Source of the DNA: a virus
IMG/VR virus record: IMGVR_UViG_3300009601_000004
Location: 28,737 to 92,736 of that record
Reading direction: 5' to 3' (one strand)
DNA length: 64,000 nucleotides
The notes beneath the pieces are model-generated. The model worked only from the letters and a program-made list of their open reading frames with translations. It searched no databases and was not told the origin of the DNA. Every line of letters starts with the position of its first letter. Position 1 is the first letter of the stretch. This document shows, in pieces, positions 46,973 to 64,000 of this stretch. Made by a program: the position numbers and the translations under genes.

Positions 46973-46993
46973 GTGTTCCATCCTTCGTATCCG

Positions 46994-49669: not shown

Positions 49670-49848
49670 TTCCAAGTATCCCACTTAGAATCCACGGTGT
49701 GCGACACGTAGCCCAGCCCCTCCGCAGCGAGTAGCTCTGTCAGCACTAGTGCGGGGCTGTAGTAGAGCTTGTCGGCCACAGCGGTAGCCGTCGCAGGCTC
49801 GATGTCTGCGAGGGCGTTGATGATCTTTTCGATGGGGTCGGCGTGCAT
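49654..49848 (-). CDS. Small winged-helix-like protein
   Basis: The 64-residue product has helices (DPIEKIINALADIEP, TATAVADKLYYSP) then a wing-like strand with aromatic residues, as in short DNA-binding winged helices. It overlaps the helicase start by about 16 nt. Function inferred from pattern only. Confidence 0.5.
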   Translation of the reverse strand: MHADPIEKIINALADIEPATATAVADKLYYSPALVLTELLAAEGLGYVSHTVDSKWDTWKWWLA

Positions 49849-49885: not shown

Positions 49886-50227
49886 TTAGATGAATCCACC
49901 GGTCTTGACAGACTGCGAAGTGCCCACGCCTGGCATCCACCCACGCACCTTGTCCCAGGCACCTTGTGGCGGTGGTCCACCAGCATCCGGCTTCCCTTCC
50001 ATTGCGGCCTGGTTGGCTTGAGCAGCGGTCAGTACAGGCGCGGGAGCTGAAGCTCCTTTGCCGGCAGTCGCGGTCGAGTAGGATTTGTAGGTCCAAACGG
50101 CAGCGGCAGCGGCGGCTACTCCGCTGGCGATCTTGGTGTTGCGCTTGCGCGTTCTCACTGCGGCCATGATGAGACCTAGCGTTGCGAGACCACCGACAAT
50201 CATCTGTGAGTTGAGAGAGAACGCCAT
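49886..50227 (-). CDS. Small membrane protein of the virion module
   Basis: This 113-residue product has two apolar segments near the N-terminus (MIVGGLATLGLIMAAV, SGVAAAAAAVWTY) separated by the basic RTRKRNTK. A Pro- and Gly-rich soluble tail follows. This fits small scaffold-like proteins of membrane-containing virions. It is coupled to the 50541 gene. Confidence 0.55.
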   Translation of the reverse strand: MAFSLNSQMIVGGLATLGLIMAAVRTRKRNTKIASGVAAAAAAVWTYKSYSTATAGKGASAPAPVLTAAQANQAAMEGKPDAGGPPPQGAWDKVRGWMPGVGTSQSVKTGGFI

Positions 50228-50541
50228 TAGATCACAGCCGCTGCGAACGGGGAGCCGTAGCCGGCCATCTTGCCGGGGTCGATCACAGGCTCATCCTCTT
50301 TCGACTGCACACCTGGGATTTTAGCTTGAACCATGGCGCGCTGGCTCTGTCGCGCAATGATCTTCATCTCCATGCCTTTAGGGCCTTGAATAAGGGCAGG
50401 CGCTCCCAGCGCGGCCAGCACACCGAGCACCACCTTCCCCCATGTCGGTTTGACCTTGTAGGCACCGAAGGCGAATGCAGCAGTGAAGATGGCTTGGCTG
50501 GCGTATTGGCCACGAGCCATGGCTTTGGGGTCGACGGGCAT
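50227..50541 (-). CDS. Small membrane protein of the virion module
   Basis: A 104-residue product. Residues 15-28 and 35-52 (GKVVLGVLAALGAPALI) are apolar and could make a hairpin. The C-terminal half is soluble and mildly basic. It is translated together with the 50227 gene downstream. Confidence 0.5.
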   Translation of the reverse strand: MPVDPKAMARGQYASQAIFTAAFAFGAYKVKPTWGKVVLGVLAALGAPALIQGPKGMEMKIIARQSQRAMVQAKIPGVQSKEDEPVIDPGKMAGYGSPFAAAVI

Positions 50542-50550
50542 GAGAAACTC

Positions 50551-51459
50551 CTAGAGGTCTGCGAGGACGGAACGAAGGGCAGCGGTCAGACGTGCCATAT
50601 GAACGGAGTCGTCTTCTTGTGCAGGCTTAGAGGGGCGTACAGGGGCGTAATGGCCGCCTGCGGGGGCTTGACGGCGCGACGGTCCACGGCGTGACGACTT
50701 CGCGGGTGCGGACACCCGATGGTCCATCCCCACCTGCCGTACAGGCTTGTACGATGCACCGGGGATGACACCCGTACGGCCACTGTGTGAGCGACCTCGG
50801 GTCTTGGTCTTCGGAGCGGGTGCGCGGTACTCCATGCCTTGGCGCTTGGGGGCTAAACGCTGCGTCGCTTGTGTTGGTGCAACAGAGTTTTCAGCCGCCG
50901 TGACGGCTGCAGTGATCTCGTCTTTTTGCGCAGAAGTCAAACGCTTTGATGTGGGGTACCGACCCTCGCCACGCAAATACTTGCGGTACTGGGTACCGTA
51001 ACGCTTCTCTTCTGCGGTGTGCCCTGGAGCGGAAGTGGCGCGGGGCTTGCGGGGCTTGCGGGGCTGGCGGGTGCCACTAGACGCAGCACGCTTAGCCGCG
51101 GCTTCTGCACGGGCCATGGCGGCGTTGACACGCTTGGTCGCAGCGGAGCCCCCCGCACCGGCTTCAACGTAGAATCCCTTGGGAGCGGCCTTGCTGTCTA
51201 GCTCAGTAAACGATTTCACTTCACCGATGACACCGGGTCCGGTGATGAGTGCGAAGTCCCCGGCTTTAGTGCCGTTGAAAGAGTAGATCCGAAGACTGAC
51301 ACCTGTGGCTCCCGCTCGCGTGTGTGAGACCTCTGGCCGCTTGAGCTTGCCGCCGTGGGCCGCGAGTACCTTGCTAATGGCCGTCAGCTGCGCACCTTCA
51401 GACTTACGCGCACTTACGTGCTTCTTGATGAGGGCTAAAATGGTGCTTTGACTTGCCAT
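50551..51459 (-). CDS. Basic, partly disordered protein
   Basis: It starts at ATG 51459 after GGAAGGA; 302 residues. The first 100 residues form a helical domain and a beta domain (GATGVSLRIYSFNGTKAGDF). The rest is Lys/Arg/Pro/Ala-rich with a repeat RKPRKPRATS and two similar blocks (GASYKPVRQVGMDHR, GGHYAPVRPSKPAQ). It is probably DNA- or RNA-associated in the virion. The promoter element is 24 nt upstream. Confidence 0.55.
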   Translation of the reverse strand: MASQSTILALIKKHVSARKSEGAQLTAISKVLAAHGGKLKRPEVSHTRAGATGVSLRIYSFNGTKAGDFALITGPGVIGEVKSFTELDSKAAPKGFYVEAGAGGSAATKRVNAAMARAEAAAKRAASSGTRQPRKPRKPRATSAPGHTAEEKRYGTQYRKYLRGEGRYPTSKRLTSAQKDEITAAVTAAENSVAPTQATQRLAPKRQGMEYRAPAPKTKTRGRSHSGRTGVIPGASYKPVRQVGMDHRVSAPAKSSRRGPSRRQAPAGGHYAPVRPSKPAQEDDSVHMARLTAALRSVLADL

Positions 51460-51483
51460 CGGGATTCCTTCCAGTGCTGTGCG

Positions 51484-51493
51484 CAGTCTAGCG
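51484..51493 (-). promoter_or_regulatory. CGCTAGACTG promoter element (site 4)
   Basis: The minus-strand element lies 24 nt upstream of the 51459 ATG, with the ribosome site GGAAGGA between. Confidence 0.6.
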
Positions 51494-51511
51494 CTTGAGT
51501 CCTAGTGTCTA

Positions 51512-52003
51512 CTACCGGCCGCGACGCCGAACCACACCATCGCCTCGCTCGATCTGTCGACCGCCCTTCACTGTCCACACAGGCCGCAGCCGTGCCCCGG
51601 TCACCAACGCCTTGAGTTTGTCCCGCTCCATGAGTGCGACCAGCTCAGGCGGTATCCAGTACAGCTCGACGATGCGGTCGTCACTGATGGCCTCGCGACC
51701 TTTGCGCCGGATGATGGCGTGGGCCTCTGTGTGGTCGACCCGGCGCACCTTGGCCTGTCGGCGCGTCTTGACGAAGCTGGGCCCCTTCCACGCGCCGCGT
51801 GTCTTACCTTTGCGGGTCTTCTTTGCCGGTTTAGGCACCATCCGCGCCATGTACAGGCCGCCTGGTGCCCCAAAGCGCGAGCAGGGCAGCGGAGCCCGCG
51901 CAGAGGCGGCCAGAGCGACACGGGACAGTGCATGGTCCGGTGTCTTCGGAGGGGGCGAACCCCTCACGGCCTTGACTGCGTTGCGGGCGGTGAGTGGCTT
52001 CAC
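51512..52003 (-). CDS. Basic protein of unknown function
   Basis: The GTG start shares its G with the previous TAG; 163 residues. The N-terminal 60 residues are Ala/Pro-rich and the middle is highly basic (KPAKKTRKGKTRGAWKGPS). A compact alpha/beta end (DRIVELYWIPPELVALMERD) finishes in RRRGR. It is probably nucleic-acid-binding and translationally coupled within the virion operon. Confidence 0.5.
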   Translation of the reverse strand: MKPLTARNAVKAVRGSPPPKTPDHALSRVALAASARAPLPCSRFGAPGGLYMARMVPKPAKKTRKGKTRGAWKGPSFVKTRRQAKVRRVDHTEAHAIIRRKGREAISDDRIVELYWIPPELVALMERDKLKALVTGARLRPVWTVKGGRQIERGDGVVRRRGR

Positions 52004-52617
52004 TAGCGTTCACGGCCTACGCGAACTCCGCAGTATTCCCACAAGATGGTCCCGTGACCAAAACGGACGTCACTGGCCTTGTAGCCGGGCGCCACATGCA
52101 GGAGGAGCAACGCCCCACCGGGACCGGGTGTGCAGTTCATCGGGGCCTTGACGACGCGCTCGGCGATGGCGCGGCTCGTGCGTTTGTCCCCACCGGAGTT
52201 TTCTGTGCGGAGGTAGAACGTCCCGGTCTTGGGTAGACTTGGGTTGCTCCGCGCTTCCCGCCGCACGCGTTCACCGTCGTGGTAGTGATTGACTTTGTCG
52301 GCGTCAGCAGCGGCTTTGTAGGGCGTCTTGTAGGTGGTCTTGCCCACTTTCACACCGTTGGGAGAGTACAGGTACCACACACCAGGGCGTGTTTTCTCCA
52401 TGCCCCAGCCATCAGCATTCACATACAGACGCTGCTCGTAGTCATAGGTCCAACCCTTGGGCATCCTGGCAGGGTTGCCATGCTTGCCGGGGTTCACAAA
52501 CAACGCGGAGGCGCTCCGAAGGCTGGGATTGCGGCGCTTGCCCCCTCCACGGCCCCTGCGGTGCGCCTTGGCTTGTGCGCGCGTCATGCCCATCTGTTTT
52601 GCTGTCTTGCCTGCCAT
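52003..52617 (-). CDS. Unknown protein with RRNP tags and beta modules
   Basis: The 204-residue product begins with a basic tag region (HRRGRGGGKRRNPSLRS). A small beta module follows (WTYDYEQRLYVNADGWG, GVWYLYSPNGVKVGKTTY), then a second tag (ARSNPSLPK) and a beta-rich C-terminus. The beta module resembles ones in the 699-residue protein. The start overlaps the peptidase stop (TAATG). Function unknown. Confidence 0.55.
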   Translation of the reverse strand: MAGKTAKQMGMTRAQAKAHRRGRGGGKRRNPSLRSASALFVNPGKHGNPARMPKGWTYDYEQRLYVNADGWGMEKTRPGVWYLYSPNGVKVGKTTYKTPYKAAADADKVNHYHDGERVRREARSNPSLPKTGTFYLRTENSGGDKRTSRAIAERVVKAPMNCTPGPGGALLLLHVAPGYKASDVRFGHGTILWEYCGVRVGRER

Positions 52618-53309
52618 TATGCCACCTGCCCTACGTAGTTAACGTAGCTGCCGTTTGCTTGGCGGTACGTGTATTTCGTGCGATTCGTCCGACGTGTCAC
52701 GTAGGATGCATGGACATTAGGGCCGCGTGAATTGCGGTTGTACAAGATGGCCTGGTCAACAACAATCTCGCCGTTGGCTACCATCTCGCGAATCAAGCTG
52801 TACGTGTCGTTGCGGTCCATCCCTTCGATGTAGAAGTCAACGGCCTCGCCTTTGGTGTGCTGGCTACCATTTTCACCGCCGATCTCGGTGTTCAACTTGG
52901 GGCTGCGAAACCACGAAGTGACTCGAACACGCCCGTTGACGCGTTGGTCGAGGGGTGACAAAAAGTTCAAAGACAGATTGGAACCTGCACGCAGCTGAAG
53001 GGGCGTCGCGGAGTTGTCGATGCCCTTGGCTACCGCGGTGTTGCTGTGTAGGAAATCTTCCACCAAGCTGAAGCGCCCGAAGTCGTACGTTTCAATGGCT
53101 TGCTGAGTCTGGGGTGTATTCACGTTCACTCCACTGGATGAGGTGCCGGATGGCTTGGCTGGGCTTTGCGACGTGATGCGCCGCTTCGGCGTCTTACGCT
53201 TCTGGGTCTTGACTACGACGTAGCCCACACCCGCGAGTGCAAGCACCGCGGCTATGACGCCACCTAGAGAGGCCATGGTGAGGCCTCTGCGCTTGCGGCG
53301 CCTTGCCAT
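52617..53309 (-). CDS. Membrane-anchored M15-type peptidase (peptidoglycan hydrolase)
   Basis: ATG 53309 gives 230 residues. The N-terminus MARRRKRRG is basic, followed by a transmembrane helix near 13-32 (LGGVIAAVLALAGVGYVVV). The catalytic domain has SQHTKGEAVDF near 148-158 (metal-binding His and Asp) and PNVHAS near 199 (second His), the pattern of M15-type DD- or LD-peptidases. A virion membrane-anchored wall hydrolase could help DNA entry, as in tailless membrane phages. No signal-release site is seen. Its place among small membrane proteins supports a virion enzyme rather than a free endolysin. Confidence 0.72.
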   Translation of the reverse strand: MARRRKRRGLTMASLGGVIAAVLALAGVGYVVVKTQKRKTPKRRITSQSPAKPSGTSSSGVNVNTPQTQQAIETYDFGRFSLVEDFLHSNTAVAKGIDNSATPLQLRAGSNLSLNFLSPLDQRVNGRVRVTSWFRSPKLNTEIGGENGSQHTKGEAVDFYIEGMDRNDTYSLIREMVANGEIVVDQAILYNRNSRGPNVHASYVTRRTNRTKYTYRQANGSYVNYVGQVA

Positions 53310-53310
53310 G

Positions 53311-53781
53311 TCAATCCTCTGCGGTGACCGCGTCAATGACTACGCGGGCTGTCTTGCCCCCATTCTTGCGCTTCTTGCGCATGAAAGGGACGGGATGTTT
53401 GCCTTGTCCGGTGCGGTAGACGGCGAAAAGCCCTCCACCTACGACAAGCGCCCAGCCCCACCACGGGACCGTCTGCACAGCCCAGGTAGCGGTCCTGCGG
53501 ACGACACCGAGCTGCTTGACCTGTGGCTGCTGCTGCTCTTGCTCACCGGGAGCGGGCATCTGCGGTTCAGAGGACTGCGTGAAGGTCGTGCGGCCCGATT
53601 GGTCGAAGCCTCCGACCTGCGGACCCGCGCCACCAACGGCACCTGCACCACCTGCACCCGAAGGACCACCGTAGTAGTCTTCGGCTGTTTGGTAGGCCCC
53701 TTGCGGTGGCCGGGATTTGCTCTCTGGCTTGAAAGGCACTTGCCCCATGGAGCTAGAGGCGAACGGTAGTACGTCGGGCAT
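53311..53781 (-). CDS. Tail-anchored virion-module protein
   Basis: This 156-residue product has a Gly/Pro/Gln-rich disordered N-terminus and a transmembrane helix near 107-125 (WWGWALVVGGGLFAVY). A basic segment (FMRKKRKNGGK) and an acidic end follow. It is coupled to the peptidase, whose start lies 1 nt before its stop. Confidence 0.6.
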   Translation of the reverse strand: MPDVLPFASSSMGQVPFKPESKSRPPQGAYQTAEDYYGGPSGAGGAGAVGGAGPQVGGFDQSGRTTFTQSSEPQMPAPGEQEQQQPQVKQLGVVRRTATWAVQTVPWWGWALVVGGGLFAVYRTGQGKHPVPFMRKKRKNGGKTARVVIDAVTAED

Positions 53782-53789
53782 TCAGGACC

Positions 53790-54197
53790 TCAAGATGCGG
53801 AAGCGAAGAGAGCGGCGCGAATGTCCGCGCTAGCAAGTTGTCCGGCTGGGAACACAAACTGCAGGGAGAGGTCTTCGGCGATGACGGGACCGAGCAACGC
53901 CAAGTAAAACGGCACGGTAGGCGTCGCAGGCCAGACCCTCGAATCGATTACAACACCCGCGATGCCATTGACCGTCGCGATTAGCTTGACCACCGTATCG
54001 ACATGCACAGCGATGGCCCCGCTGGGTTGGGCCACCGTGTACGCGACGCGCGTCATCCCGGAGGTGTTCATAAAAAGGTGCGTCACCGTACTAGCACCAG
54101 CGTTTGTGAAGTAGCTGCCGCGTGTGCCGCCGCCGTTGCCCCCACCTGGAGTGACGTCGGCGACGTAGCGAGGGAGTCCTGTCTTTTCGCCAAACAT
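53790..54197 (-). CDS. Beta-rich protein, candidate minor virion protein
   Basis: ATG 54197 overlaps the stop of the next gene upstream; 135 residues. It opens with a Gly-rich loop (TPGGGNGGGTRGS) and then alternating beta strands (RVAYTVAQPSGAIAVHVDTV). It looks like a small jelly roll or similar beta sandwich. It is coupled to two other beta-rich genes. Confidence 0.5.
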   Translation of the reverse strand: MFGEKTGLPRYVADVTPGGGNGGGTRGSYFTNAGASTVTHLFMNTSGMTRVAYTVAQPSGAIAVHVDTVVKLIATVNGIAGVVIDSRVWPATPTVPFYLALLGPVIAEDLSLQFVFPAGQLASADIRAALFASAS

Positions 54198-54823
54198 CAG
54201 TGCAGCTCCGAGCTGATAGTGATCTGCTGGGCACCAACGGCGCCAAACACCAAGTCTGAGACGATGGCCAACCCCCAGAAACGGACAGGGCTGTGCAGTG
54301 GAAATACAAGCGTCGTGGTGTAGGTCGTGCGCGCCCCTGCTGTTGGCACGCTGAAGCCGCTGTACACCTGGCTTGAGATATTGAATGGCGCGCTGTTGTA
54401 CGCAAGGAGTCGGGGGTTGAGAGCGTGTGACCTCGTCACGTAGCTGAAGCGCCACACGGATGCCGTGAGTAGAATAGCCTCGATGGTCACGTAAAGACTC
54501 AGGTGGTTACCGTGCATCAATTCACGGGGTACGGCCATGGCTTCGGTGCCGTAGCTGTTGGAGGCTGCAAGGTCACCGCGCAAGTCAAGAGGGACCAACT
54601 CCCACAAGCGGCGCTGTACGACACCCGCGCTGGCACCAAAGGCCCCGTCGCCGGTTGTGATGACCGCGCCCTGGCTAGGGCCGCTCGTGCCCTGGCCCTG
54701 GTAGCCTAGCGGACGCTGGACATCGACAGGCATACCGCTGCGCCCACCGAAGGCACCACCGCCTACGCGTTGCTGCCCTGCGGCTTCCGGTAGGGAGCCA
54801 AAAGCGTTTACTGGTTTTGTCAT
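54197..54823 (-). CDS. Beta-rich protein, candidate capsid-associated protein
   Basis: The 208-residue product has a flexible Gly-rich N-terminus (residues 1-60) and then strands typical of a beta sandwich (LSLYVTIEAILLTASVWRFS, TYTTTLVFPLHSPVRFWG). Size, beta content and operon position fit a capsid or vertex protein. No sequence family recognised. Confidence 0.5.
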   Translation of the reverse strand: MTKPVNAFGSLPEAAGQQRVGGGAFGGRSGMPVDVQRPLGYQGQGTSGPSQGAVITTGDGAFGASAGVVQRRLWELVPLDLRGDLAASNSYGTEAMAVPRELMHGNHLSLYVTIEAILLTASVWRFSYVTRSHALNPRLLAYNSAPFNISSQVYSGFSVPTAGARTTYTTTLVFPLHSPVRFWGLAIVSDLVFGAVGAQQITISSELH

Positions 54824-54838
54824 GGGGTCATCCTCCTA

Positions 54839-55435
54839 CTAGCCCGAAAAGTTGCCCGCCATGGGGGTCAGCTCGATTGCCCAGAGCGACAAATCGATAC
54901 GCAGGTTGGCGAACAATGGGGTGATCAGCACCTGCATGACCGTGCCGCCAGGAAAGCGCCAAGCTGGCATACCGAGGTAACGCGGGTATTTCGCGTCACC
55001 GAGCACAACCGAGCCCAGAGCGGCGTTGTCTTGGTACTGGCGACCCTGCGCCAGCTTGAATTGGACTGTGAAGGTGTCGAGCGGATTAGCCACGTTGGTG
55101 GGCGGGAATGCAGCACCAGACGTGTCGTAGACCGCAGCAGTGAGCGCGTAGATGGCGCTATCCAGGTCGAAAGCGATTGTCGGGATGGCGGTCGTACCCG
55201 CATTGCCGTTTACAATCGAGATCACGCGGTCGTTGAGACCGGGTGTGAAGCCTTCCGCGGGCAGAAGGGGTGCAGGCTCTGCGACGTGCATGGCAATGAA
55301 AGGTACACCGCCGATGACGGTTGCACGGCCGGTCTGCTCAAGACCCGCGCGCATAGCGGGACCGAGTTGTGACTCGATGGCTTTTTCCACGCTCTGTAGG
55401 GCGAGGGCTTCCATGTACTGACGTTGGGAGGTCAT
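54839..55435 (-). CDS. Beta-rich protein, candidate capsid protein
   Basis: ATG 55435 has GGAG upstream; 198 residues. A helical N-terminus (residues 1-40) precedes a beta domain with FTVQFKLAQGRQYQDN and PGGTVMQVLITPLFANLRID. It may pair with the 55570-56211 product. The helical arm resembles ones that contact a membrane or scaffold. Confidence 0.5.
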   Translation of the reverse strand: MTSQRQYMEALALQSVEKAIESQLGPAMRAGLEQTGRATVIGGVPFIAMHVAEPAPLLPAEGFTPGLNDRVISIVNGNAGTTAIPTIAFDLDSAIYALTAAVYDTSGAAFPPTNVANPLDTFTVQFKLAQGRQYQDNAALGSVVLGDAKYPRYLGMPAWRFPGGTVMQVLITPLFANLRIDLSLWAIELTPMAGNFSG

Positions 55436-55484
55436 AGCGAGACTCCAGAGGGGCAAAAGGTGTGCAAGGTCACAAGTGGATGAG

Positions 55485-55537
55485 ACTAAAAAGGGGAAAG
55501 GCCCCGAAGGACGCTCGGATGAACGACCCGCGAGGCC
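55485..55537 (-). terminator. Hairpin after the candidate major virion protein gene
   Basis: On the minus strand GGCCTCG pairs with CGGGGCC with one wobble, and the stem is followed by TTTCCCCTTTTT. It lies between the 55570 stop and the next gene, so it may lower expression of the downstream genes relative to the first one. Confidence 0.5.
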
Positions 55538-55569
55538 TCACGGCGCTGTGGCCACCGCGGTGCGAAGGC

Positions 55570-56211
55570 CTAGCCTTCAGGCACTGCGGAGGTAGCGACG
55601 CCCACCAGGTGGGTACGGATGACGAGGTTCGAGCTGTTGATGCCGCCATCGACTGCGATAGCGGAGTCACCGAACGACAGTTGCAGCGAGAAGCTGGTGT
55701 TTGCCGGCAGGAGCACAGGCAGCTCGTGGTAGACCCAGGTAGACCCTGCGCCGTTGTTCAACGCGATACGTGAACCGCCGGAGCCGCCCTCGACTGCGCC
55801 GGTATCAGCGGTCGAACCGAAGATACCACCACCCTGTCCGATGAGGGACACGGTTGCAATTTCAACAGTCGTGTTGAGGAACTTCCAGATTGGAACGCAG
55901 TTGTTGAGCAGGTTGCGCAGGTCGGCGCCTACGACGGCCCACGAGTCGTCATAGAGCGGCTCAACAGCCACCTGACGCACGGTGTAGGCAAGACCAGACG
56001 CGATTCGACCGGCCTCGGCCATGTTGGTCTCAGCGATGGACATGGGATTCGGCCAGCCCTGGCCGGTGCCGCCTTGCTTCGTCGAGAAGAGGTCGCGGGT
56101 GAGTCCTGCCAAGACGGCGCCGTTCAGGAAGTAGTAGCTACTCCAGAGGTCGGCTTCGTAGTAGCGCTTTACGTTCGTGGGGAGCCGGAAACCGGCCATT
56201 TGTCCGTACAT
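55570..56211 (-). CDS. Candidate major virion protein (beta-rich)
   Basis: The 213-residue product has its own transcript boundaries, with hairpins on both sides, and AGGAGG just upstream of ATG, both common for major capsid genes. Residues 1-60 are helical with aromatics. The C-terminal half has strands HELPVLLPANTSFSLQLSFG and LVIRTHLVGVA like a jelly roll. The gene is placed at the centre of the virion module. The assignment to capsid is inference; it lacks the HK97 signature. Confidence 0.5.
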   Translation of the reverse strand: MYGQMAGFRLPTNVKRYYEADLWSSYYFLNGAVLAGLTRDLFSTKQGGTGQGWPNPMSIAETNMAEAGRIASGLAYTVRQVAVEPLYDDSWAVVGADLRNLLNNCVPIWKFLNTTVEIATVSLIGQGGGIFGSTADTGAVEGGSGGSRIALNNGAGSTWVYHELPVLLPANTSFSLQLSFGDSAIAVDGGINSSNLVIRTHLVGVATSAVPEG

Positions 56212-56249
56212 GAAGACCTCCTAAAAGGGTCGCGGGGTGTGCGCATAAA

Positions 56250-56273
56250 ACAGGGAGAATTGAAAAGCCCTGT
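56250..56273 (-). terminator. Terminator-like hairpin between the Arg-rich gene and the candidate major virion gene
   Basis: On the minus strand ACAGGG pairs with CCCTGT around a 12-base loop, followed by TTTTATG. It could end the upstream transcript, and the TTTTAT that follows could be part of a promoter for the next gene. Confidence 0.5.
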
Positions 56274-56356
56274 GCCGCAGAGGCGGCGGTAGGGGTGATG
56301 GACCGTGCGGAACTACAAGGGGTAGGAGGAGCTACACACGGTCCATCGAGGGAAGA

Positions 56357-57382
56357 CTAGGAGCCGACGAGCACGGCGCCCATGGCACCAGAGAAGCCGC
56401 CCGGTGAGACCGAGAAGCCAGGGCCCATGCCCATGTCAGCGGAGAGGAGGCCGTAGCCACCGGTAGAACTGGACACGAGGGCGCCCATGCCGGCCACTGG
56501 CTCATCACCACCGACCTGCTGTTCAGGTGTCGCGATGCCGGCTTCATTCGCCAGCTGGCGTGAACGCATCTTGACGTAGCCAGCACCCGCACCTGCAGCG
56601 GTCATCAGACCCGGCAGATTGGCGATGGAGCCAAGGAACGGGATCTTCGAGATACCGGCCATCTTCAGGCCACCTGCAACGACTGCACCAGAGAGAGCGG
56701 AGAGCAGCGTAAAGTACGCAAACTCATTCTCTTTCAGTACGGCCGGGATCCAAGTCTGCGACGAGACAATGGGCGACAGGCGGAGTGGGATTTCCATTGC
56801 GACACCGGCCAAGAGGCCAGCAGGCATGGAGCCGAACGCCGCCGCGAGGGTACCGCCAATGACAGGCACCTTCTTGAACATCTTGCCAATGCCGGGATTG
56901 CGGCGGACACGGCGAGAGCCCCGACGTGTCTTGCTCGACAGCTTCCATGGATTGCGACGCGGACGCATGGCTCCACGGCCCTTACGTGCGCGCTTGCGCT
57001 TGATCTTGCCGGCGTGAATGCGACGAACACCTGGACGCGGGTTGCGGCGTTTTGCCTGACCACGGCGAGAGGTGCGGCGTTTTGCCTGCCCACGGCGGGC
57101 GGTGCGGTGCTTCGCCTGCCCACGGCGGGCGGCGCGGCGAGGGTTGCGACGAGTTGCCCGGCGACGATTGCGACTGGCAAGCATACGGCGGCCAGAGTGA
57201 CGGCCCTTGCGGCCCTTGCGGCCCTTGCGGCTTGTGCGGCCCCGACGGGTCTTGCTGCGACTGCGGGGATTGCGGCGGGTGACCCGAGGTGCCTTACGGC
57301 GAGCCTTACGGCCTCGACCCGGATTGCTGATCACCGTCGCGATTGTCCGGCGGCGGCTAGTTGCGGTGCGACGACGCGCCAT
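56357..57382 (-). CDS. Extremely Arg-rich protein with a hydrophobic C-terminal half
   Basis: A 341-residue protein. The first 165 residues are mostly Arg/Lys with repeated blocks: RRGQAK(R/H)RT three times, RKGRKGRKGR, and RRNP at least five times. The second half has apolar segments (GSMPAGLLAGVAMEIPL, FTLLSALSGAVVAGGLK, NLPGLMTAAGAGAGYV) that would make two or three membrane spans. The N-terminus could condense or tether DNA to a membrane. ATG 57382 has TAGGAGT upstream. A virion role is likely from its neighbours. No known family fits. Confidence 0.6.
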   Translation of the reverse strand: MARRRTATSRRRTIATVISNPGRGRKARRKAPRVTRRNPRSRSKTRRGRTSRKGRKGRKGRHSGRRMLASRNRRRATRRNPRRAARRGQAKHRTARRGQAKRRTSRRGQAKRRNPRPGVRRIHAGKIKRKRARKGRGAMRPRRNPWKLSSKTRRGSRRVRRNPGIGKMFKKVPVIGGTLAAAFGSMPAGLLAGVAMEIPLRLSPIVSSQTWIPAVLKENEFAYFTLLSALSGAVVAGGLKMAGISKIPFLGSIANLPGLMTAAGAGAGYVKMRSRQLANEAGIATPEQQVGGDEPVAGMGALVSSSTGGYGLLSADMGMGPGFSVSPGGFSGAMGAVLVGS

Positions 57383-57579
57383 ACTGTACTCCTACGTGTA
57401 AAAAGGCTGCGGCGGCGTCACCCTAGGGGGCCTCTCCGTCAGCAGGCCACCGAAGCGGCCGACACTCGTAGTTTGGCGGTTTGGCCCCACAACTGGCACG
57501 CCTGCGGCCAATAGGGGGTGCCATGGCGTCTAGGCGCATGGGCGCTTCTTTCTACTGGGCGCCGTGGTAGTCAGGGTGG

Positions 57580-57595
57580 CTAGACCGCTAGACTG
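57580..57595 (+). promoter_or_regulatory. CTAGACCGCTAGACTG promoter element (site 5)
   Basis: This is the same 16-mer as at 46994, here on the plus strand. It lies 15 nt before the GTG start of the small regulator gene at 57611, inside a 228-bp gap between divergent genes. Confidence 0.65.
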
Positions 57596-57610
57596 CCCCT
57601 GGGGGTGCGC

Positions 57611-57820
57611 GTGAAGAAGATCAGCGTCAAGATGGCAGACGGTTTGCACAAGAAAGTGGGGCACATAGCAGTGGACGAGGACGTCACCAAAGCGGGCGTG
57701 TGCCGTTCGGCGCTACTCGTGTTCTTGGAGCTACGCCCTGCATTACCAGCTCTACGAGCCCGCGCCAAAAAAGAAGGCGTCCCGTTGGACACCTTGATCA
57801 CACAGCTGTTGAGCGCTTAG
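57611..57820 (+). CDS. Small RHH-like regulator on the opposite strand of the virion module
   Basis: GTG 57611 with GGGGG about 6 nt upstream gives 69 residues; GTG 57605 is an alternative. The N-terminus is a basic strand (KKISVKMADGLHKKVG), then two helices with LVFLELRPALPALRAR, as in ribbon-helix-helix proteins. It is the only plus-strand gene in a 15-kb minus-strand block and has its own promoter element, so it may control the late block. It overlaps the convergent gene by 4 nt. Confidence 0.55.
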   Translation: MKKISVKMADGLHKKVGHIAVDEDVTKAGVCRSALLVFLELRPALPALRARAKKEGVPLDTLITQLLSA

Positions 57821-58446
57821 CTCAGCTTCACAACAGAGATGCGCTGAAGAGTGCCGCCTGTGCCTGCGGCGCCAGCACTACATGTGAGTGCGATGCCGAG
57901 GACGTTGTCAATCGTGGTGTTCGGATTGGTGCCATCCACGTCGTTGTCCACTGACCCAGCAACGGCTGCAATCTTGGCACTGATGTCGGAAGCAAACGAC
58001 GCCACACCGCCGACACCGATGGTACGAACAGTTAAGTTAGCCGAGATGAACCAGTCACCCGAGGCCGACGTGATGGCGGCAGTAGTAGCCAGCGCTGTGC
58101 CGCCAAAGCTCAAATCGAAGACGGCTGTCTGTGCCCCTGCTCGTAGCCAAGTGCCGCTTGCCTGCACCTGTAGGACGTCACCTACTGCAAGTGTGCTGGC
58201 ACCCACAGTGTACGTGCTGTTGAACACGGTGCGCACGGCGGTGTTGTCAATGGTCGCAGAGGGTGCGACCGAGGCCAACAGCAAAGCAGACCCGGCGGTC
58301 GACCACAACGGGGCCACACCTGGTCCACCTGACTGGAGACGTGAGCCGGCTACCCCCGCACCTAAGCGGGAGAGCAGGCCATTGGCCCCCATATAAAGCA
58401 GATCACCCAGGGTGGTGAGTGTCCAGCGGCTGGCTTGATGAGGCAT
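57817..58446 (-). CDS. Spike- or fibre-like beta protein (paralogue of 59573-60193)
   Basis: The 209-residue product starts with a short helical adaptor (LTTLGDLLYMGANGLLSR). A beta sandwich rich in Ala, Thr, Gly and Val follows (LAVGDVLQVQASGTWLRAG, DWFISANLTVRTIGVGG). The pattern NT-x-x-F, L-x-x-GD and W-x-(I/L)-S-A-x-L matches the other copy, which suggests receptor-binding or vertex-spike domains. The translation start is uncertain; no strong ribosome site is visible. Confidence 0.55.
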   Translation of the reverse strand: MPHQASRWTLTTLGDLLYMGANGLLSRLGAGVAGSRLQSGGPGVAPLWSTAGSALLLASVAPSATIDNTAVRTVFNSTYTVGASTLAVGDVLQVQASGTWLRAGAQTAVFDLSFGGTALATTAAITSASGDWFISANLTVRTIGVGGVASFASDISAKIAAVAGSVDNDVDGTNPNTTIDNVLGIALTCSAGAAGTGGTLQRISVVKLS

Positions 58447-58489
58447 TCATTCATCCTAGTGATCTGTGTGACTGGGAGCGTCGAGCGGC

Positions 58490-58837
58490 TTAGCCGAGAG
58501 CGGTGCCATCGTTATGGACCAGACGCCAGACATAGGTCGCAGCCGCTGTACGGAAGGCCTGCAACGTGAACGAGTCGCCAACATCAGCCAGCGTGATCGT
58601 AGTGTTGCCCGCCACATTGAAGGCTGCTGCTACGGTGACGACACAGTCACCGCCATCCGTCAGGAAGTAGCAACGGATCTGCTGGCCTGCGAAGGTCGGG
58701 ACTGCAATAGTCCGCGCTTCCGCACCAGCTGTAATGATTGCGTAGTCCTGCGAGATGGCGACGCCAAGGGCACCACCAGCGCCAGGGTCAGCAGCGAATG
58801 TCGAGCTGTCTACGCCAGAAAAGAAATTAGAGGGCAT
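58490..58837 (-). CDS. Small beta-rich protein, possible spike component
   Basis: ATG 58837 follows AAGGAGA; 115 residues. The sequence is beta-rich and low in charge (QDYAIITAGAEARTIAVPTF, NTTITLADVGDSFTLQAF). It resembles small head-decoration or fibre-tip domains of other phages. A variant promoter element (CCGCTAAACTA) lies 36 nt upstream. Confidence 0.5.
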   Translation of the reverse strand: MPSNFFSGVDSSTFAADPGAGGALGVAISQDYAIITAGAEARTIAVPTFAGQQIRCYFLTDGGDCVVTVAAAFNVAGNTTITLADVGDSFTLQAFRTAAATYVWRLVHNDGTALG

Positions 58838-58873
58838 GATGTCTCCTTGGGTGGAACCAATGGGTTGCACAAG

Positions 58874-58884
58874 TAGTTTAGCGG
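58874..58884 (-). promoter_or_regulatory. CCGCTAAACTA variant promoter element (site 6)
   Basis: One core base (TAAACT for TAGACT) and the last base differ from the other sites. The position, 36 nt upstream of the 58837 start, is similar. Confidence 0.5.
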
Positions 58885-58912
58885 CACGGCTGCAGAAGTG
58901 GCACAAACGTCT

Positions 58913-59572
58913 TTAGTTTGTGATCCCTGCGTCTGGCACATGGTAGTCACCGCCGGCCCACCACAGGCGTCCACGCTTGTCGACACCGAGCCAGGGCTTG
59001 TGCCCGGTCTCTTCGCCCATGTGGTGTTCATACAGGTCGGGGATAAACTCATGTGCTAAGCGGGCGCCCTTGCGTCTGGCTTTCGCATCGTCCATCTTCG
59101 GCGTCAGGTAGACGACACGCTCGACGATGCCTACGGGCTTTACCAACACGTTGGGGTAGCGCTTTTTGTGCTGCCGAAGTTTGCGCCGGTACGGCTGGCC
59201 ATACTCATCCCACGTCGCGAGCTGTGCCAGCTTGAGCGGCTGGACGCCTCGACCTCGGTCCCAGAGCGCCCGCTTCATCTCCTGCAAGACGTGCAAGTCA
59301 AGCACATTGTACAGCCGCCTGACCTTCGGGTCGTCGAATAGCAGCATGGCTTGTGGGTCATCCCCATCGGTCGGGAAGTCCAGCACCATAGTGTCTCCGC
59401 CAGGTGAGCGGATTTCCAGCTCGGACAAGCGGCCCATCATCACCAAGTGGTCGGGTAGGTCCGCGTCATCGACCTCAAGCACTTTGTCAGCCTCGATGCC
59501 CCAGTGCGCGTCTTTGTACGCCTTCAAGGAGCTGGCGGGTGCTTTCCCTGTCGAGCGGCGTATCTTGCCCAT
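58913..59572 (-). CDS. Unknown protein of the virion module
   Basis: The 219-residue product has a mixed alpha/beta pattern with HLVMMGRLSELEIRSPGGD and a C-terminal basic segment (GVDKRGRLWWAGGDYHV). His and Asp are frequent in the last third, but no known metalloenzyme motif appears. The start follows the previous TAG directly (TAGATG). Confidence 0.5.
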   Translation of the reverse strand: MGKIRRSTGKAPASSLKAYKDAHWGIEADKVLEVDDADLPDHLVMMGRLSELEIRSPGGDTMVLDFPTDGDDPQAMLLFDDPKVRRLYNVLDLHVLQEMKRALWDRGRGVQPLKLAQLATWDEYGQPYRRKLRQHKKRYPNVLVKPVGIVERVVYLTPKMDDAKARRKGARLAHEFIPDLYEHHMGEETGHKPWLGVDKRGRLWWAGGDYHVPDAGITN

Positions 59573-60193
59573 CTAGGGGGCCGATGGCGGGAACATGGTC
59601 ACTGTGCTGTACACGCTGGTGATGCTGTTCGAGGCGTTGGCTGTTCCCCACTGCGCACCCGCTTGGATCGATAAGTCACCCGTGGGGGACGACTGCACCG
59701 CGGCGTAGCTGGTAGCCGCATCCGCCGTGCCCAGCCGCGTAAGAATCTCCGTACGCAGCTTGACAGCACCAACGGCGTCCACGTAGAGGTCCGCGCTGAT
59801 GGACCACTCGCCATCCAGGTTGGGTGAGATTGTGCGACTGAGCAAGACCACACCTTCAACAACCAAGCTCACGACGAGTTCTGGAGTTCCTGTGCGGCCC
59901 CACGAGCCCCCAAGACTAATGCGACCCGTGGCACCCGCTTGCAATTTGGCTGCTGGGATGGTCACAGGGGCGAAAACGCCAGCGGTTGTGGTGTTGGCGA
60001 TGGTGCCTGCGGTCTCGTCACTGCTGGCTTGGGCGGTGCCCAAAGTGCCCGCCATAGCAACCCACGCTACACCGGTCCAGTAGTACAGAGTGCCTAGATA
60101 GGTCTCCAGTGAATACTGCACGCCGGTCGCGGGTAGGCCGGCGGCCTGCTCGATGTTGATACCGCCGTCTGGGAATCGTGTCGTGTCAGCCAT
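59573..60193 (-). CDS. Spike- or fibre-like beta protein (paralogue of 57817-58446)
   Basis: The 206-residue product has an N-terminal adaptor (residues 1-45) followed by a beta sandwich (AGVFAPVTIPAAKLQAGATG, EWSISADLYVDAVGAVKL) with the same strand order as its paralogue. The two proteins may form hetero-oligomers or offer alternative receptor specificity. It is coupled to the 60193 gene by TAATG. Confidence 0.55.
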   Translation of the reverse strand: MADTTRFPDGGINIEQAAGLPATGVQYSLETYLGTLYYWTGVAWVAMAGTLGTAQASSDETAGTIANTTTAGVFAPVTIPAAKLQAGATGRISLGGSWGRTGTPELVVSLVVEGVVLLSRTISPNLDGEWSISADLYVDAVGAVKLRTEILTRLGTADAATSYAAVQSSPTGDLSIQAGAQWGTANASNSITSVYSTVTMFPPSAP

Positions 60194-61107
60194 TAGTGCT
60201 TCCGTGCGCGCTTGCGGCGCAGTCTAGGGTTTTTACGCTTGGTGGGCAGCAGTGCCGCCCCTATTTTCGCGTAGGGTGCCGCCACAGCGGCCACGAGGCC
60301 AACGCCACCGGCGACCACACCGACCTTGCCCCAAGTGGGCAGGTTTGTCCACAAAGCGCTGACCACCCATTTCACCGGGTCATTCTCACGGTCCTTGGGA
60401 TTCGAGGGGTCACCACCGGGCATCACAACACCTGCCACGTCTTCGGGGATGCGTAGACGCTTGAGCCGGGTAAGGTACGTGACAGCCGCGGGTGCTGACA
60501 AGCGTTGCATCTTGTCGATGCCTTCGTCGTAAAGTCCCCGGATGCGACTGGGTGCATCCGACCTCCCGATCGACGCCTGACCCATGACCTGCGCACCTAC
60601 GTCAGTCACCCACTGCCCCACCCACGCTCCCAGGTAGTAGGTGGCGTTAAACCCTGCGGCCAGCGTCGCTGTCCACAAGTTCAAGATCGCATAGCCGGCG
60701 CTCTGTGCAGGCCTCGACGTGGGGTCTACAGCACGCCGGACATACTCGTAGGTACTCGCAGGGCGCTGTCCCGATAGTATCTCTTTGTGGAGCTGCACGC
60801 GGTTGACTGTCGCCGAGACGACTGCCAAGCGAAGCTGCACACCGACGGTGTTGCCCGCAGCTTCCCCAACCCACGAGGGTGCCTGTGCGATGCTCGATGC
60901 AAAGCTCCCGTCGCGGTTGCCGTTGGGTAGCGCCATGAAGGCGACAACCTCTTTGATCATCCTGCCAATGGCTTTGCGGTCCCCTGGCGCTTTCTGCTGC
61001 TTTGCGGCACCGAGAGCACCGAGAGCACCGAAGCCTCGGGCGGTGCCGAAACCTTCCCCGGAGACGCTACGGTGCGCAAGCGCTGACTGACCTTGCCAAT
61101 GACTCAT
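60193..61107 (-). CDS. Membrane protein with basic RKNP tail
   Basis: The 304-residue product has an amphipathic middle (residues 120-165) and a strong transmembrane helix near 265-285 (GKVGVVAGGVGLVAAVAAPY). It ends KRKNPRLRRKRARKH, one of the basic RNP tags in this window. It probably spans or attaches to a virion membrane with the basic tail facing nucleic acid. Confidence 0.55.
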   Translation of the reverse strand: MSHWQGQSALAHRSVSGEGFGTARGFGALGALGAAKQQKAPGDRKAIGRMIKEVVAFMALPNGNRDGSFASSIAQAPSWVGEAAGNTVGVQLRLAVVSATVNRVQLHKEILSGQRPASTYEYVRRAVDPTSRPAQSAGYAILNLWTATLAAGFNATYYLGAWVGQWVTDVGAQVMGQASIGRSDAPSRIRGLYDEGIDKMQRLSAPAAVTYLTRLKRLRIPEDVAGVVMPGGDPSNPKDRENDPVKWVVSALWTNLPTWGKVGVVAGGVGLVAAVAAPYAKIGAALLPTKRKNPRLRRKRARKH

Positions 61108-61706
61108 CTTCGACTCCTACGACGCTTGCGGCTGGTGCGAACCACGCCAGCGCCAATGAGAACTATGGCTGCAACACCAATGCCTGTGACGACCCACAAG
61201 TTCCGCGTGATGCCATCCTGCCAATCCTTGCCCGCGTCGATGGAGTCGGTACGGTCGTCGACCATGGCCTGCAGAGCTTCCAGCTCGTGCCGGAGCCTAC
61301 GAATCTTCCAAGCGGGTTTGTTCTGGGCAATAGCCTTTTCGAGTGCGGCCCGCTTGCGTGATGCGCGAACGCGAGGGTCGCTGAATTGTGCGATTACGGG
61401 CGCGTATTGGTCGAGCACCGACAAGATGTTGCCGCCGCCACCGGCACCGCCACCACCGCCACCGGCATCTTGATAGCTGGGGCCGCTGTAGTGCCCTGCT
61501 TGCGCTGCGTACTGCTGCTGCTGGGTACTGACGTCCCCTAGCCAGGTGCCACCGAGACTGGCGGTCATGCCCGAACGGGTACGCGGTCCACTACCAAGGG
61601 CACGATGGGACCGACCAAACGAGAACCGGGGCACTTGTAGCAGCGGCATCCCCATGGGGCCAGGGCTGCTGTACGCTGCGTGTAAGGACTTACGCCGTGC
61701 CATCAT
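61104..61706 (-). CDS. Tail-anchored protein with Gly-rich linker and basic end
   Basis: This 200-residue product has an Arg-rich start, a Gly-rich linker (GGGGGGAGGGG near 85) and a charged helix. A C-terminal membrane helix (NLWVVTGIGVAAIVLIGAGV) is followed by RTSRKRRRSRR. It is coupled to both neighbours by ATGA overlaps. Confidence 0.55.
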   Translation of the reverse strand: MMARRKSLHAAYSSPGPMGMPLLQVPRFSFGRSHRALGSGPRTRSGMTASLGGTWLGDVSTQQQQYAAQAGHYSGPSYQDAGGGGGGAGGGGNILSVLDQYAPVIAQFSDPRVRASRKRAALEKAIAQNKPAWKIRRLRHELEALQAMVDDRTDSIDAGKDWQDGITRNLWVVTGIGVAAIVLIGAGVVRTSRKRRRSRR

Positions 61707-62629
61707 CGACTCCTACGGGTGCGACGGCGCTTGACCACATTCACAGTGCCTGCCGCCAAGAGTAGGGCCACACCGGACCCCACAGCAATCATACCGATGT
61801 CTGTCTTGACCCACTCAACGACATCGCCGACGGCTCCACGCTCCTCGACAACCCGAGGCGCCGTTGAGACCATACCTGCTATCGTCGGCTCGTTCGGTAC
61901 CGTGAGCTTGAGGCCGATGACCACCTTTGCTGCGTTCAAGCGGTCGATGTCCTTCTGTAGCTGCAACTTCTGACGCTTGTACTTTTTGCGGCGGCTCTTG
62001 CTGTTGGGCTTGCTGTCATGCCGACGCTTCGCCTTGCGTACGTCGTCGCGCTCTTTGCCGATCTTGCGCTCCCAACGCTCAGCGTGGCGTTGAACGACCT
62101 GCAGCTTAGCGGCCGACATCTTGCCGTATTCCTTCGCGAACGCCAGAGGATAGCCTTTGTCGATCGCGACCTGTCGAGCAGCCTTCACACCCTTGCGCCG
62201 GAAAGTGTCCACAAGCACAATGATACCGGCTGTGGCGACCAACCCACCCGCCACAATCCAGCCAGCGACCGGAATAGCAGTGGCGACCGCACCTCCCGCA
62301 AGCATGGTGGTAACCATGGTGCTGCCCGCGGCCATGGCAACGCCGCTGGCTGCTTTGCCGCCCTCCGTCGCACCTCCACCCGAGTAGCTGGCGTTCGCCA
62401 CAACAGGGGCCGGCGCAAATGGCATGGACGCATAGCCGTGATGGTTTGCCGCTGCGGTCTTGAAGGCGCCCAGCGTGAGCGCTCCACTGTTTTTCGTACC
62501 ACGGCCCGTGCCGGTCCACCCTTGAGACACACCGGGGCCATACGGCGCAAGCCCAGTGGCACCATAGGATGTGCCGAGCATACCTTTGCGCTGGCTCTTG
62601 AATTTCCGCGCTGTGTATTCAGTGCTCAT
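61703..62629 (-). CDS. Membrane protein with central hydrophobic segment and basic coiled coil
   Basis: ATG 62629 has AGAGGT upstream; 308 residues. Residues ~100-145 are apolar (AGGAVATAIPVAGWIVAGGL) and could span twice. A Lys/Arg-rich helix (RKAKRRHDSKPNSKSRRKKY in similar order) follows. A second span near 285 precedes a basic tail (KRRRTRRSR). It is coupled to the neighbouring gene. Confidence 0.55.
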   Translation of the reverse strand: MSTEYTARKFKSQRKGMLGTSYGATGLAPYGPGVSQGWTGTGRGTKNSGALTLGAFKTAAANHHGYASMPFAPAPVVANASYSGGGATEGGKAASGVAMAAGSTMVTTMLAGGAVATAIPVAGWIVAGGLVATAGIIVLVDTFRRKGVKAARQVAIDKGYPLAFAKEYGKMSAAKLQVVQRHAERWERKIGKERDDVRKAKRRHDSKPNSKSRRKKYKRQKLQLQKDIDRLNAAKVVIGLKLTVPNEPTIAGMVSTAPRVVEERGAVGDVVEWVKTDIGMIAVGSGVALLLAAGTVNVVKRRRTRRSR

Positions 62630-62636
62630 TTTACCT

Positions 62637-63134
62637 CTAAGATGCTGCTGCAGCCGCAAGGGCTAGTAGTGCGAGACTGCCGATTACCCATTTAGCTTTG
62701 GCCGACCTGACCGGGTCAGGTGTGACTGTCTGCTCTTGGTAGAAGGGCTCCGTGGGCGGCGGGACGTCAGGCACCGTGCCCCTTGCCGGCATCGTGTTGC
62801 GCTTGAGCTTCTCGTCTTGGCCGGCTTTGGCCTTCTCTTCTGCCTGAACGCGAGCCGCTTTCCGCCTCGCGTTCAGCGCTTGCGTGTCCGCCAAGCGCTG
62901 TGCGGCCTGAGCCGCTCCCGTTGCGGCGTTCTGCGCTTTGACGTCGTCCCGCGTCTGCACATACAGGTCGTACAATCCTACCTTTTCAGGCGAGTTCTGT
63001 GTCACCCTGAACATGGTAGTTTGCGCAGTCCGCAAGTGCAGATTGGCTTTGTGGGCATCACCAAATTTGGCTAGCTCCAAGGCCTCTGCAAGCAGCACCC
63101 GTGTGAGCGCTGCGTCTTGCTGCGACTGGCTCAC
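62637..63134 (-). CDS. Tail-anchored helical protein, paralogue of the 63131 gene
   Basis: GTG 63134 overlaps the previous TGA; 165 residues. An N-terminal helix pair contains AHKANLHLRTAQTTM, followed by a basic Ala-rich helix and a C-terminal membrane helix (KWVIGSLALLALAAAA). The helix with the N-x-x-L-R pattern matches the 63131 protein. Confidence 0.55.
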   Translation of the reverse strand: MSQSQQDAALTRVLLAEALELAKFGDAHKANLHLRTAQTTMFRVTQNSPEKVGLYDLYVQTRDDVKAQNAATGAAQAAQRLADTQALNARRKAARVQAEEKAKAGQDEKLKRNTMPARGTVPDVPPPTEPFYQEQTVTPDPVRSAKAKWVIGSLALLALAAAAAS

Positions 63135-63706
63135 GAGGTTGCCGCCCAACCGGCGAACGCCAGCAGCGCGAGGACACCACCACCGATGGCTACCTTCGCC
63201 CCCGTGGACATACCGTCACCCTCCTCCGGGTACTCTTCGATGTATTCTTCCGTGTAGACATCGCCACCCGGCACGCCTTCGTCGCCGTAGTCCACGGCGT
63301 TCTGTGCGGCGTGCTCTGCCAGCAGTGCCGCAACGCGCTGCTGAGCCGCCGCTACCGTCGAGGCCAACCCGGTCCTACTACCAGATGCCGACTGGAGGGC
63401 CTTCACTGCGCGACGGAGGTAGGTATTGGCGTTGAGTGTCTGGCCATGCTTTGCGGCTGCAATGGCTTTCGTGAGGTTTTGCGTGATGCGAGCACCTTGT
63501 ACATCCTGCTTGCTCATGACACTAGTCGACGTTTGGGTGCTTGCATCCGGCGCCTTGAAACCTGGTCGTGTCATGCCTGCACCGTAGTTGCCCATGGGGC
63601 TGTACGGCGTCGCGCCATTGTGTACGGCACCGTAGGCGACAGCAGCGCGGTGGCCCGCCCCTATGCTACCGAAGCGCCCATATGAATTTGGTTTTCCAAC
63701 AGCCAT
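63131..63706 (-). CDS. Tail-anchored helical protein
   Basis: The 191-residue product has a flexible N-terminus rich in Gly, Tyr and Pro and a helix pair with LNANTYLRRAVKALQ similar to the 62637 protein. An acidic stretch (YTEEYIEEYPEEGDG) and a C-terminal membrane helix (GGGVLALLAFAGWAATS) follow. It is probably embedded in a virion membrane. Confidence 0.55.
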   Translation of the reverse strand: MAVGKPNSYGRFGSIGAGHRAAVAYGAVHNGATPYSPMGNYGAGMTRPGFKAPDASTQTSTSVMSKQDVQGARITQNLTKAIAAAKHGQTLNANTYLRRAVKALQSASGSRTGLASTVAAAQQRVAALLAEHAAQNAVDYGDEGVPGGDVYTEEYIEEYPEEGDGMSTGAKVAIGGGVLALLAFAGWAATS

Positions 63707-63715
63707 GAGGGCCCC

Positions 63716-64000
63716 CTAAGAGAGTGTGTAAGCGCCGGCACCGACCACGAGGACAGCTCCGCCAATGATTGCAGCGACGGCCCAAGGGGACATCTTCTTT
63801 TTCGGTACCGGAGGTGGGGGTCGGTACATGGACGTACCCCCCGTGCGTGGTCCACCACCAGCAGGCGGCAGGCCACTGGAGCTAGATGGACCACCCTGCC
63901 CAGGGTGGTCCATGCCGATCTGTTGTGCTGCCTGGAGCCCGAAGTTGAACCACTGCCCGATCTGGTCTGGTGTGACGCCGCCGCCGCCGCCGCCGCCGCC
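63716..64000 (-). CDS. Partial tail-anchored protein running off the right edge
   Basis: The frame ends at 63716 and stays open to 64000. An internal Met at 63913 might look like the start, but upstream codons read sensibly (VTPDQIGQWFNFGLQAAQQ) and continue into a glycine run encoded by a GCC repeat. The visible C-terminus has a Pro/Gly linker, a KKKM motif and a membrane helix (WAVAAIIGGAVLVVGAGAY). The true N-terminus lies outside the window. Confidence 0.65.
   Translation of the reverse strand, partial: GGGGGGGGVTPDQIGQWFNFGLQAAQQIGMDHPGQGGPSSSSGLPPAGGGPRTGGTSMYRPPPPVPKKKMSPWAVAAIIGGAVLVVGAGAYTLS
63978..64000. repeat. GCC trinucleotide repeat at the window edge
   Basis: At least seven tandem copies of GCC encode a glycine run in the partial gene on the minus strand. 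It could vary in length by slippage, or it may have caused an assembly end at this point. Confidence 0.7.

Follow-up and report, generated by a model that had tools for sequence, protein, structure and literature searches.

A conserved block of candidate jelly-roll and membrane protein genes points to a probable large tailless bacterial virus without a recognisable terminase

The DNA analysed here, a 64,000-nucleotide window of virus record IMGVR_UViG_3300009601_000004, spans bases 28,737-92,736 of a 92,736-base contig, and the right end of the window is the end of the contig. At positions 49886-64000 lies a block of genes for small membrane proteins, beta-rich proteins and a wall peptidase, in which the convincing genes are all on the minus strand, bar one small plus-strand open reading frame. 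An original prediction had read this block as the virion genes of a large tailless virus that otherwise carries the replication genes of a large phage. For the present analysis the remaining 28.7 kb of the contig (the bases before the window, labelled L001) were added.

Both contig ends consist of a (GCC)n run with a 25-base overlap, and the minus-strand frame encodes poly-Gly on each side. In four relatives, the genes for a transglutaminase-like protein, a 138-aa protein, membrane proteins and the candidate major capsid protein (MCP) lie in this coding-strand order, which is regained here only when the two contig ends are joined. Because the gene order needs joined ends and the poly-Gly frame reads through the joint, the contig is probably a circular and nearly complete genome; the record itself is classed by its ends. 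The gene at 63716 runs on at contig base 1, and the block therefore crosses the contig ends. There it continues on the minus strand with genes for a membrane protein, a sigma-like factor, a 138-aa protein, an ice-binding-like protein, a transglutaminase-like protein and spike paralogues, reaching about L001:8600; downstream it extends to the SNF2 gene at 47015. The block thus exists where it had been placed, whereas its proposed limits were too narrow. The ice-binding-like domain protein (L001:4294-5451; Pfam PF11999, 1e-22) is encoded within this structural block.

Single block proteins, or the SNF2 protein, retrieved no relatives when used as queries for related loci. The route to relatives was opened by a 98-residue segment of the polymerase, which found 79 loci; among the records so reached, G001 proved to encode a protein homologous to the 55570 product (E 8.6e-33). 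Alignment-based searches added G019, G020, G021, G022, G023 (a contig in a Gemmatimonadota metagenome-assembled genome, MAG) and G024 (a contig of 92,743 bases from a MAG with the label proteobacterium), and G210 was found among 298 genomes of the phylum of G023. Eight genomes or contigs besides this one therefore carry the block, and two more genomes of the phylum of G024 hold weaker MCP relatives. The record G003 (L015, 136,910 bases) has a polymerase segment 67% identical to ours and a UvrD homologue, but lacks both an MCP relative and a phrog_2 terminase match. An exact 127-base repeat forms the ends of G019 (unique length 72,861) and an exact 141-base repeat those of G024:C152 (unique length 92,602); both genomes are therefore taken as closed circles, assembled at those word lengths. 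The closed or probably closed genomes thus measure 72.9, 92.6 and about 92.7 kb, and one further contig has 105 kb, in agreement with the large-phage size that had been proposed.

Module membership was defined by profile clustering over all called proteins of the nine genomes or contigs. The MCP candidate (55570) occurs in 9/9, the second shell candidate P2 (54839) and a KNP-rich basic membrane protein in eight each, the 58913 family, P3 and P4 in six each, and the transglutaminase-like and 138-aa proteins in five each. The KNP and P3 counts include the 56357 and 54197 products of this genome, which were placed by position only; the respective family profiles did not reach E 1e-3 on either. 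Gene order is highly constant across the nine: 58913-type, KNP protein, MCP, P2, then the two further beta-rich proteins P3 and P4, followed mostly by SNF2. None of the core proteins has a PHROG match, nor any match at E<=1 in 50,697 phage records. Two tandem MCP copies are present in each of the Gemmatimonadota-binned contigs G023 (L093:5429-6893) and G210 (C1:5194-6688), possibly as separate hexamer and pentamer proteins, and the Gemmatimonadota bins are a hint of the host. The SNF2 gene of G024 is followed by genes for a small holin-like membrane protein and an M15 peptidase (L124:16335-17858), a putative lysis cassette that would close the block. Features of the block in the present genome are collected in Table 1.

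Table 1. Genes of the block, with the predicted character of each product and its basis
Feature	Position	Strand	Basis
Candidate MCP, 213 aa, predicted single jelly roll	55570..56211	-	36-43% identical homologues with the same neighbouring genes in 8 other genomes/contigs; Foldseek/VIA matches mostly viral jelly rolls
P2, second candidate single-jelly-roll shell protein, 205 aa	54839..55456	-	homologues in 7 other genomes; homology begins near residue 50
P3, third beta-rich protein, 208 aa	54197..54823	-	positional counterpart after P2; short shared PVRFWGL stretch
Very basic KNP/RNP-rich protein, hydrophobic segments, 341 aa	56357..57382	-	directly before MCP gene; sequence, hydropathy, position
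Conserved block protein, 219 aa	58913..59572	-	G001 homologue 35-42% identical; profile finds 6 genomes, always before KNP-MCP
Spike/fibre-like paralogue, 209 aa	57817..58446	-	40% identical to L001:7235-8065
Spike/fibre-like paralogue, 206 aa	59573..60193	-	weak similarity to 57817 product
138-aa beta-rich block protein	58490..58906	-	coding score and position only
Protein with C-terminal helix, basic tail KRKNPRLRRKRARKH	60193..61107	-	hydropathy, sequence
Protein with C-terminal helix, basic tail RTSRKRRRSRR	61104..61706	-	hydropathy, sequence
Protein with two helices, basic tail VKRRRTRRSR	61703..62659	-	hydropathy, sequence
Tail-anchored small protein, helix at very C-terminus	62637..63149	-	hydropathy
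Tail-anchored small protein, helix at very C-terminus	63131..63706	-	hydropathy
Tail-anchored protein with poly-Gly linker, continuing at contig base 1 (L001)	63716..64000	-	matching Gly frames at both ends
Peptidase M15, N-terminal membrane helix (wall hydrolase)	52617..53336	-	Pfam PF08291 1.2e-11; PHROG 894 (endolysin) 1.8e-19; orthologues in G019, G024
Small one-helix protein	50227..50541	-	hydropathy
SNF2-family helicase/translocase, capsid-linked group	47015..49684	-	Pfam SNF2 2e-28; orthologues near shell genes in G001, G020, G021, G022, G024

Membrane helices were called with a Kyte-Doolittle scan (19 residues, mean >=1.6), which finds one in ten minus-strand genes of 49886-64000, or nine without the beta-rich 59573 product, matching the at least nine proteins that had been claimed. 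With the continuation at the other contig end included, 12/31 block genes have a helix, as against 6/65 elsewhere (Fisher p 0.0014), and a helix within 60 residues of the C-terminus occurs in 8/31 as against 2/65 (p 0.0016). The products of 60193, 61104 and 61703 end in strongly basic tails; the C-terminal helices and basic tails of the original prediction are both borne out. Its other observations hold as well: beta-rich proteins of about 200 residues (54197, 54839, 55570), a wall peptidase with a membrane anchor (52617) and spike-like paralogues. Among the latter, the 57817 product aligns with that of L001:7235 over 215 aa (E 1e-34) and also matches those of L001:6633 (E 5e-6) and 59573 (E 2e-3 to 3e-5).

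The original prediction had proposed to look for single or double jelly rolls in predicted structures of the 54197, 54839 and 55570 products. AlphaFold2 models of the MCP and P2 candidates were built from 9 and 7 sequences, respectively, and their best rows in unbiased structure libraries (Foldseek/VIA) are overwhelmingly viral single jelly rolls. After realignment, the P2 model matches chain 6oj0_A of SPV1 first (Z 8.5, 3.0 A, 126 residues), with capsid chains of HHIV-2, SH1 and HCIV-1 at about Z 7, and for the MCP model 6oj0_A stands in a leading tie (Z 7.1, 133 residues). All four of these viruses contain an internal membrane. The conserved MCP candidate has 213-263 aa and is modelled as one sandwich. 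These models, of low confidence, suggest a single jelly roll for each of the 55570 and 54839 products. Sequence profiles of MCP and P2 gave chance matches only against PDB chains. Two individual hits were likewise set aside as chance, one of 55570 to Agrobacterium phage Atu_ph07 (E 2) and one of the shell proteins to an annotated plasmid dioxygenase (E 0.04).

Pfam and PHROGs scans covered 72 proteins of this genome, 83 of G024 and 66 of G019, the PHROGs tables for these large protein sets giving the best 25 of 41, 57 and 48 families. They reveal a polymerase, helicases, primase, nucleases, methylases, integrase and wall hydrolases. The replication genes are of tailed-phage type, in line with the large-phage replication genes of the original prediction. 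The family A polymerase (9627-12785) has an N-terminal uracil-DNA-glycosylase-like part, and a related pattern is seen in G001. No large terminase (TerL), portal or HK97 protein was found by Pfam or among the listed PHROG families in these three closed or probably closed genomes, and such profiles can miss diverged HK97 and portal proteins. PF03237 terminase has no match in any block carrier, and phrog_2 TerL nothing credible in six block-carrying genomes; a match in G001 (41 residues of a 94-aa frame, E 5e-4) was rejected as chance. The same phrog_2 search finds TerL in 6/12 phages sharing the polymerase, which shows that it works here and that the replication core is common to tailed phages. 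Virus Rctr197k, whose record notes a terminase-like feature, was set aside, being related by its polymerase only.

Neither in the window nor where the block resumes at the opposite end of the contig is there a tail, portal or terminase gene next to it. The claim that tail genes are not recognisable thus stands, also in the two relatives closed by end repeats. PHROG baseplate-hub, tape-measure and minor-head labels in G024 and G019 could not be traced to a head or tail protein, and ten of the largest proteins gave no more than fibre or decoration domain hits, confined to a single protein, along with unnamed families and NUDIX. The module is conserved and novel in sequence, and the closed genomes hold no recognised tailed-phage packaging genes.

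The original prediction had proposed extending the contig to decide between a terminase and an FtsK/A32-type packaging ATPase. No terminase appeared, and neither did the expected ATPase: Pfam and P-loop scans of the closed genomes show no FtsK/HerA ATPase, and searches with FtsK (PF01580) and DUF87/HerA (PF01935) gave no convincing match. As a positive control, Pfam detects the packaging ATPase of P23-77 clearly and that of SH1 weakly (E 0.002). The nucleoside triphosphatases (NTPases) found are SbcC-like, Sak4-like and SNF2 proteins in G019 and SNF2 only in closed G024. Whichever its type, SNF2 is the one NTPase family found in all three closed or probably closed genomes, which makes it the best candidate for a packaging motor, or else virion cargo. 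A shell-linked group of SNF2 proteins comprises members from this genome, G001, G020, G021, G022 and G024, and a replication-linked group members from this genome, G019, G020 and G022; G019 has the replication type only. Two other candidates for the motor were rejected. The ATPase at 27041-28273 is encoded within the replication half and on the opposite strand, has no counterpart in the relatives and gives weak AAA/STAND-like scores only, and the Sak4-like protein is common to polymerase-relative phages and was not found in closed G024.

A C-terminal module of ~65 residues (F..RWT..SA..W....GY...) is shared by nine proteins at E 1e-20 or better after iteration. Its carriers are a RelA/SpoT-like protein (32300-33433), capsid-linked SNF2 proteins and 1251- and 1379-aa proteins of the relatives, from this genome, G001, G019, G020, G021, G022 and G024, and the module is a candidate virion-cargo tag. 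A different segment of ~40 residues (LF.A.HA.L....TA.WM..N), found in this genome only, is common to four long proteins (34357-36723, 36720-38837, 41336-44869 and 44873-46981), one of them a C5-cytosine methyltransferase.

We consider it likely that the block serves to build the virion of a large tailless bacterial virus with a circular double-stranded DNA genome of about 73-105 kb, a single-jelly-roll shell over a membrane vesicle and no recognisable terminase or FtsK/HerA motor, its DNA being packed by SNF2 or by condensation. The 55570 and 54839 products would form the shell, assembled over a vesicle studded with the small tail-anchored proteins, whose basic tails would point toward shell or DNA, and the KNP-rich basic membrane protein would tie DNA, membrane and shell together. 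The spike paralogues would sit on the surface and bind the host, while the M15 and transglutaminase-like proteins would have the cell wall or proteins as their targets, the wall hydrolases opening the envelope. Packing of the DNA would fall to an SNF2-type translocase, whose gene lies beside those for the shell, or would come about through condensation with basic proteins. The large tailless lineage of the original prediction is thus supported with reservations, which concern the missing FtsK/A32 ATPase, the low-confidence models and a membrane, virion, assembly and packaging that we infer from sequence.

Several results weigh against this interpretation. The models are of low confidence (MCP pLDDT 52, pTM 0.50; P2 pLDDT 55, pTM 0.52), their match lists also hold KHP40, KHP30 and Pam1 phage cement proteins, tail-fibre domains and unrelated sandwiches, and Z 7-8.5 can reflect just a common sandwich. 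Comparing profiles with the capsid proteins of SH1 and P23-77 yielded nothing, a test in which the known SH1/P23-77 pairs fail too. The helix enrichment is modest: shuffled block proteins give a mean of 7.4 and a maximum of 11 helix scorers, and composition therefore accounts for part of the count. Weak structural matches could sit outside the best 25 PHROG families, and jelly rolls also occur in tailed-phage cement and tail-fibre proteins. A highly diverged tailed phage, whose terminase, portal and HK97 capsid are present yet unrecognisable and whose beta-rich proteins are decoration, cement or fibre, would suit the tailed-phage-type replication genes, the TerL of polymerase relatives, the cement and tail-fibre rows among the fold matches, and a G024 protein in which about 100 residues match tail-fibre and head-decoration PHROGs. 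We nevertheless think such a phage unlikely. TerL, normally among the easiest phage genes to detect, is missing by Pfam and PHROGs in two genomes closed by exact end repeats, the P-loop scan of these genomes leaves only the SNF2, SbcC-like and Sak4-like proteins, and the best-conserved genes are the jelly-roll candidates rather than a head-tail set.

If the virus were of the Halopanivirales (Helvetiavirae) type and its FtsK/HerA-type packaging ATPase had escaped recognition, this would account for the fold matches to capsid proteins of SH1, HHIV-2 and HCIV-1, the adjacent pair of candidate shell proteins and the M15/SLT wall enzymes. A very diverged ATPase is conceivable, since the SH1 control scored so weakly; closed G024, however, has no plausible P-loop besides SNF2, and we regard this explanation as quite improbable. 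Within the tailless interpretation, a choice closer to balance is whether the capsid-linked SNF2 protein is cargo rather than motor, the genome lying in a basic-protein nucleoprotein core; this is a real possibility that falls somewhat short of an even chance. Because G019 has only replication-type SNF2 and the tag-like ~65-residue module is common to SNF2 and unrelated proteins, condensation is an equal or better alternative as the means of packing. A very basic KNP protein is encoded in each block, and portogloboviruses offer a precedent for such a core (PMC8459092). Against cargo stands the presence of SNF2, of either type, as the only NTPase family in all three closed or probably closed genomes. 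We know of no precedent for condensation alone at 70-105 kb.

The proposed virus would work most like the single-jelly-roll membrane viruses of Portogloboviridae and Helvetiavirae, with membership of either failing on genome size and, for Helvetiavirae, on the ATPase. Described features of Portogloboviridae are a pair of single-jelly-roll proteins, an inner membrane and a nucleoprotein core, and none of the functions assigned to their genes is that of a packaging ATPase (PMC8459092). The present genomes resemble their member SPV1 in a candidate single-jelly-roll pair, predicted membrane proteins, circular double-stranded DNA and no recognised packaging ATPase. SPV1, however, is an archaeal virus of 20 kb without replication genes, and the family is marked by a ~20 kb circle and Sulfolobales hosts, whereas the present lineage has 73-105 kb, falls in bacterial MAGs or metagenomes (closed relatives of 72.9 and 92.6 kb) and encodes its own polymerase, helicases, primase, nucleases and wall hydrolases. 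With Helvetiavirae (Thermus phage P23-77; Haloarcula viruses SH1, HHIV-2 and HCIV-1) it shares the adjacent candidate pair, many small membrane proteins, wall-degrading enzymes and a tailless layout. Helvetiavirae are marked by two vertical single-jelly-roll major capsid proteins, of which the low-confidence models here suggest the single jelly roll; their genomes of 17-31 kb, in contrast, carry a packaging ATPase of the FtsK/HerA superfamily beside the capsid genes, and here neither such an ATPase nor capsid sequence similarity was found. Caudoviricetes with related family A polymerases have the polymerase, a RecA/Sak4-like protein, a PD-(D/E)XK nuclease and an SNF2 helicase in common with it, but their defining large terminase, found in half of the polymerase-relative phages tested, was found in no block carrier.

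The collections searched hold no named member of the lineage, and the literature searched, with subscription papers and preprints outside its scope, describes no such large tailless lineage. That these viruses form a new high-rank lineage, large and tailless, with a single-jelly-roll membrane virion on a tailed-phage-like replication core and 70-105 kb of DNA packed by an SNF2 translocase without terminase or FtsK/HerA, is a bolder proposal that we hold doubtful in this full form. Because the core proteins are unmatched in the phage records and PHROGs, pipelines keyed to terminases or known capsids would miss the lineage. The single-jelly-roll membrane viruses compared (P23-77, SH1, Portogloboviridae, Simuloviridae) have genomes of 17-31 kb and, except for portogloboviruses, an FtsK-HerA-type motor. 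If our reading is true, a lineage of 73-105 kb without that motor would widen the known size range of such virions, tailless shells would be able to combine with large-phage replication cores, and the packaging of their genomes would become a testable question.

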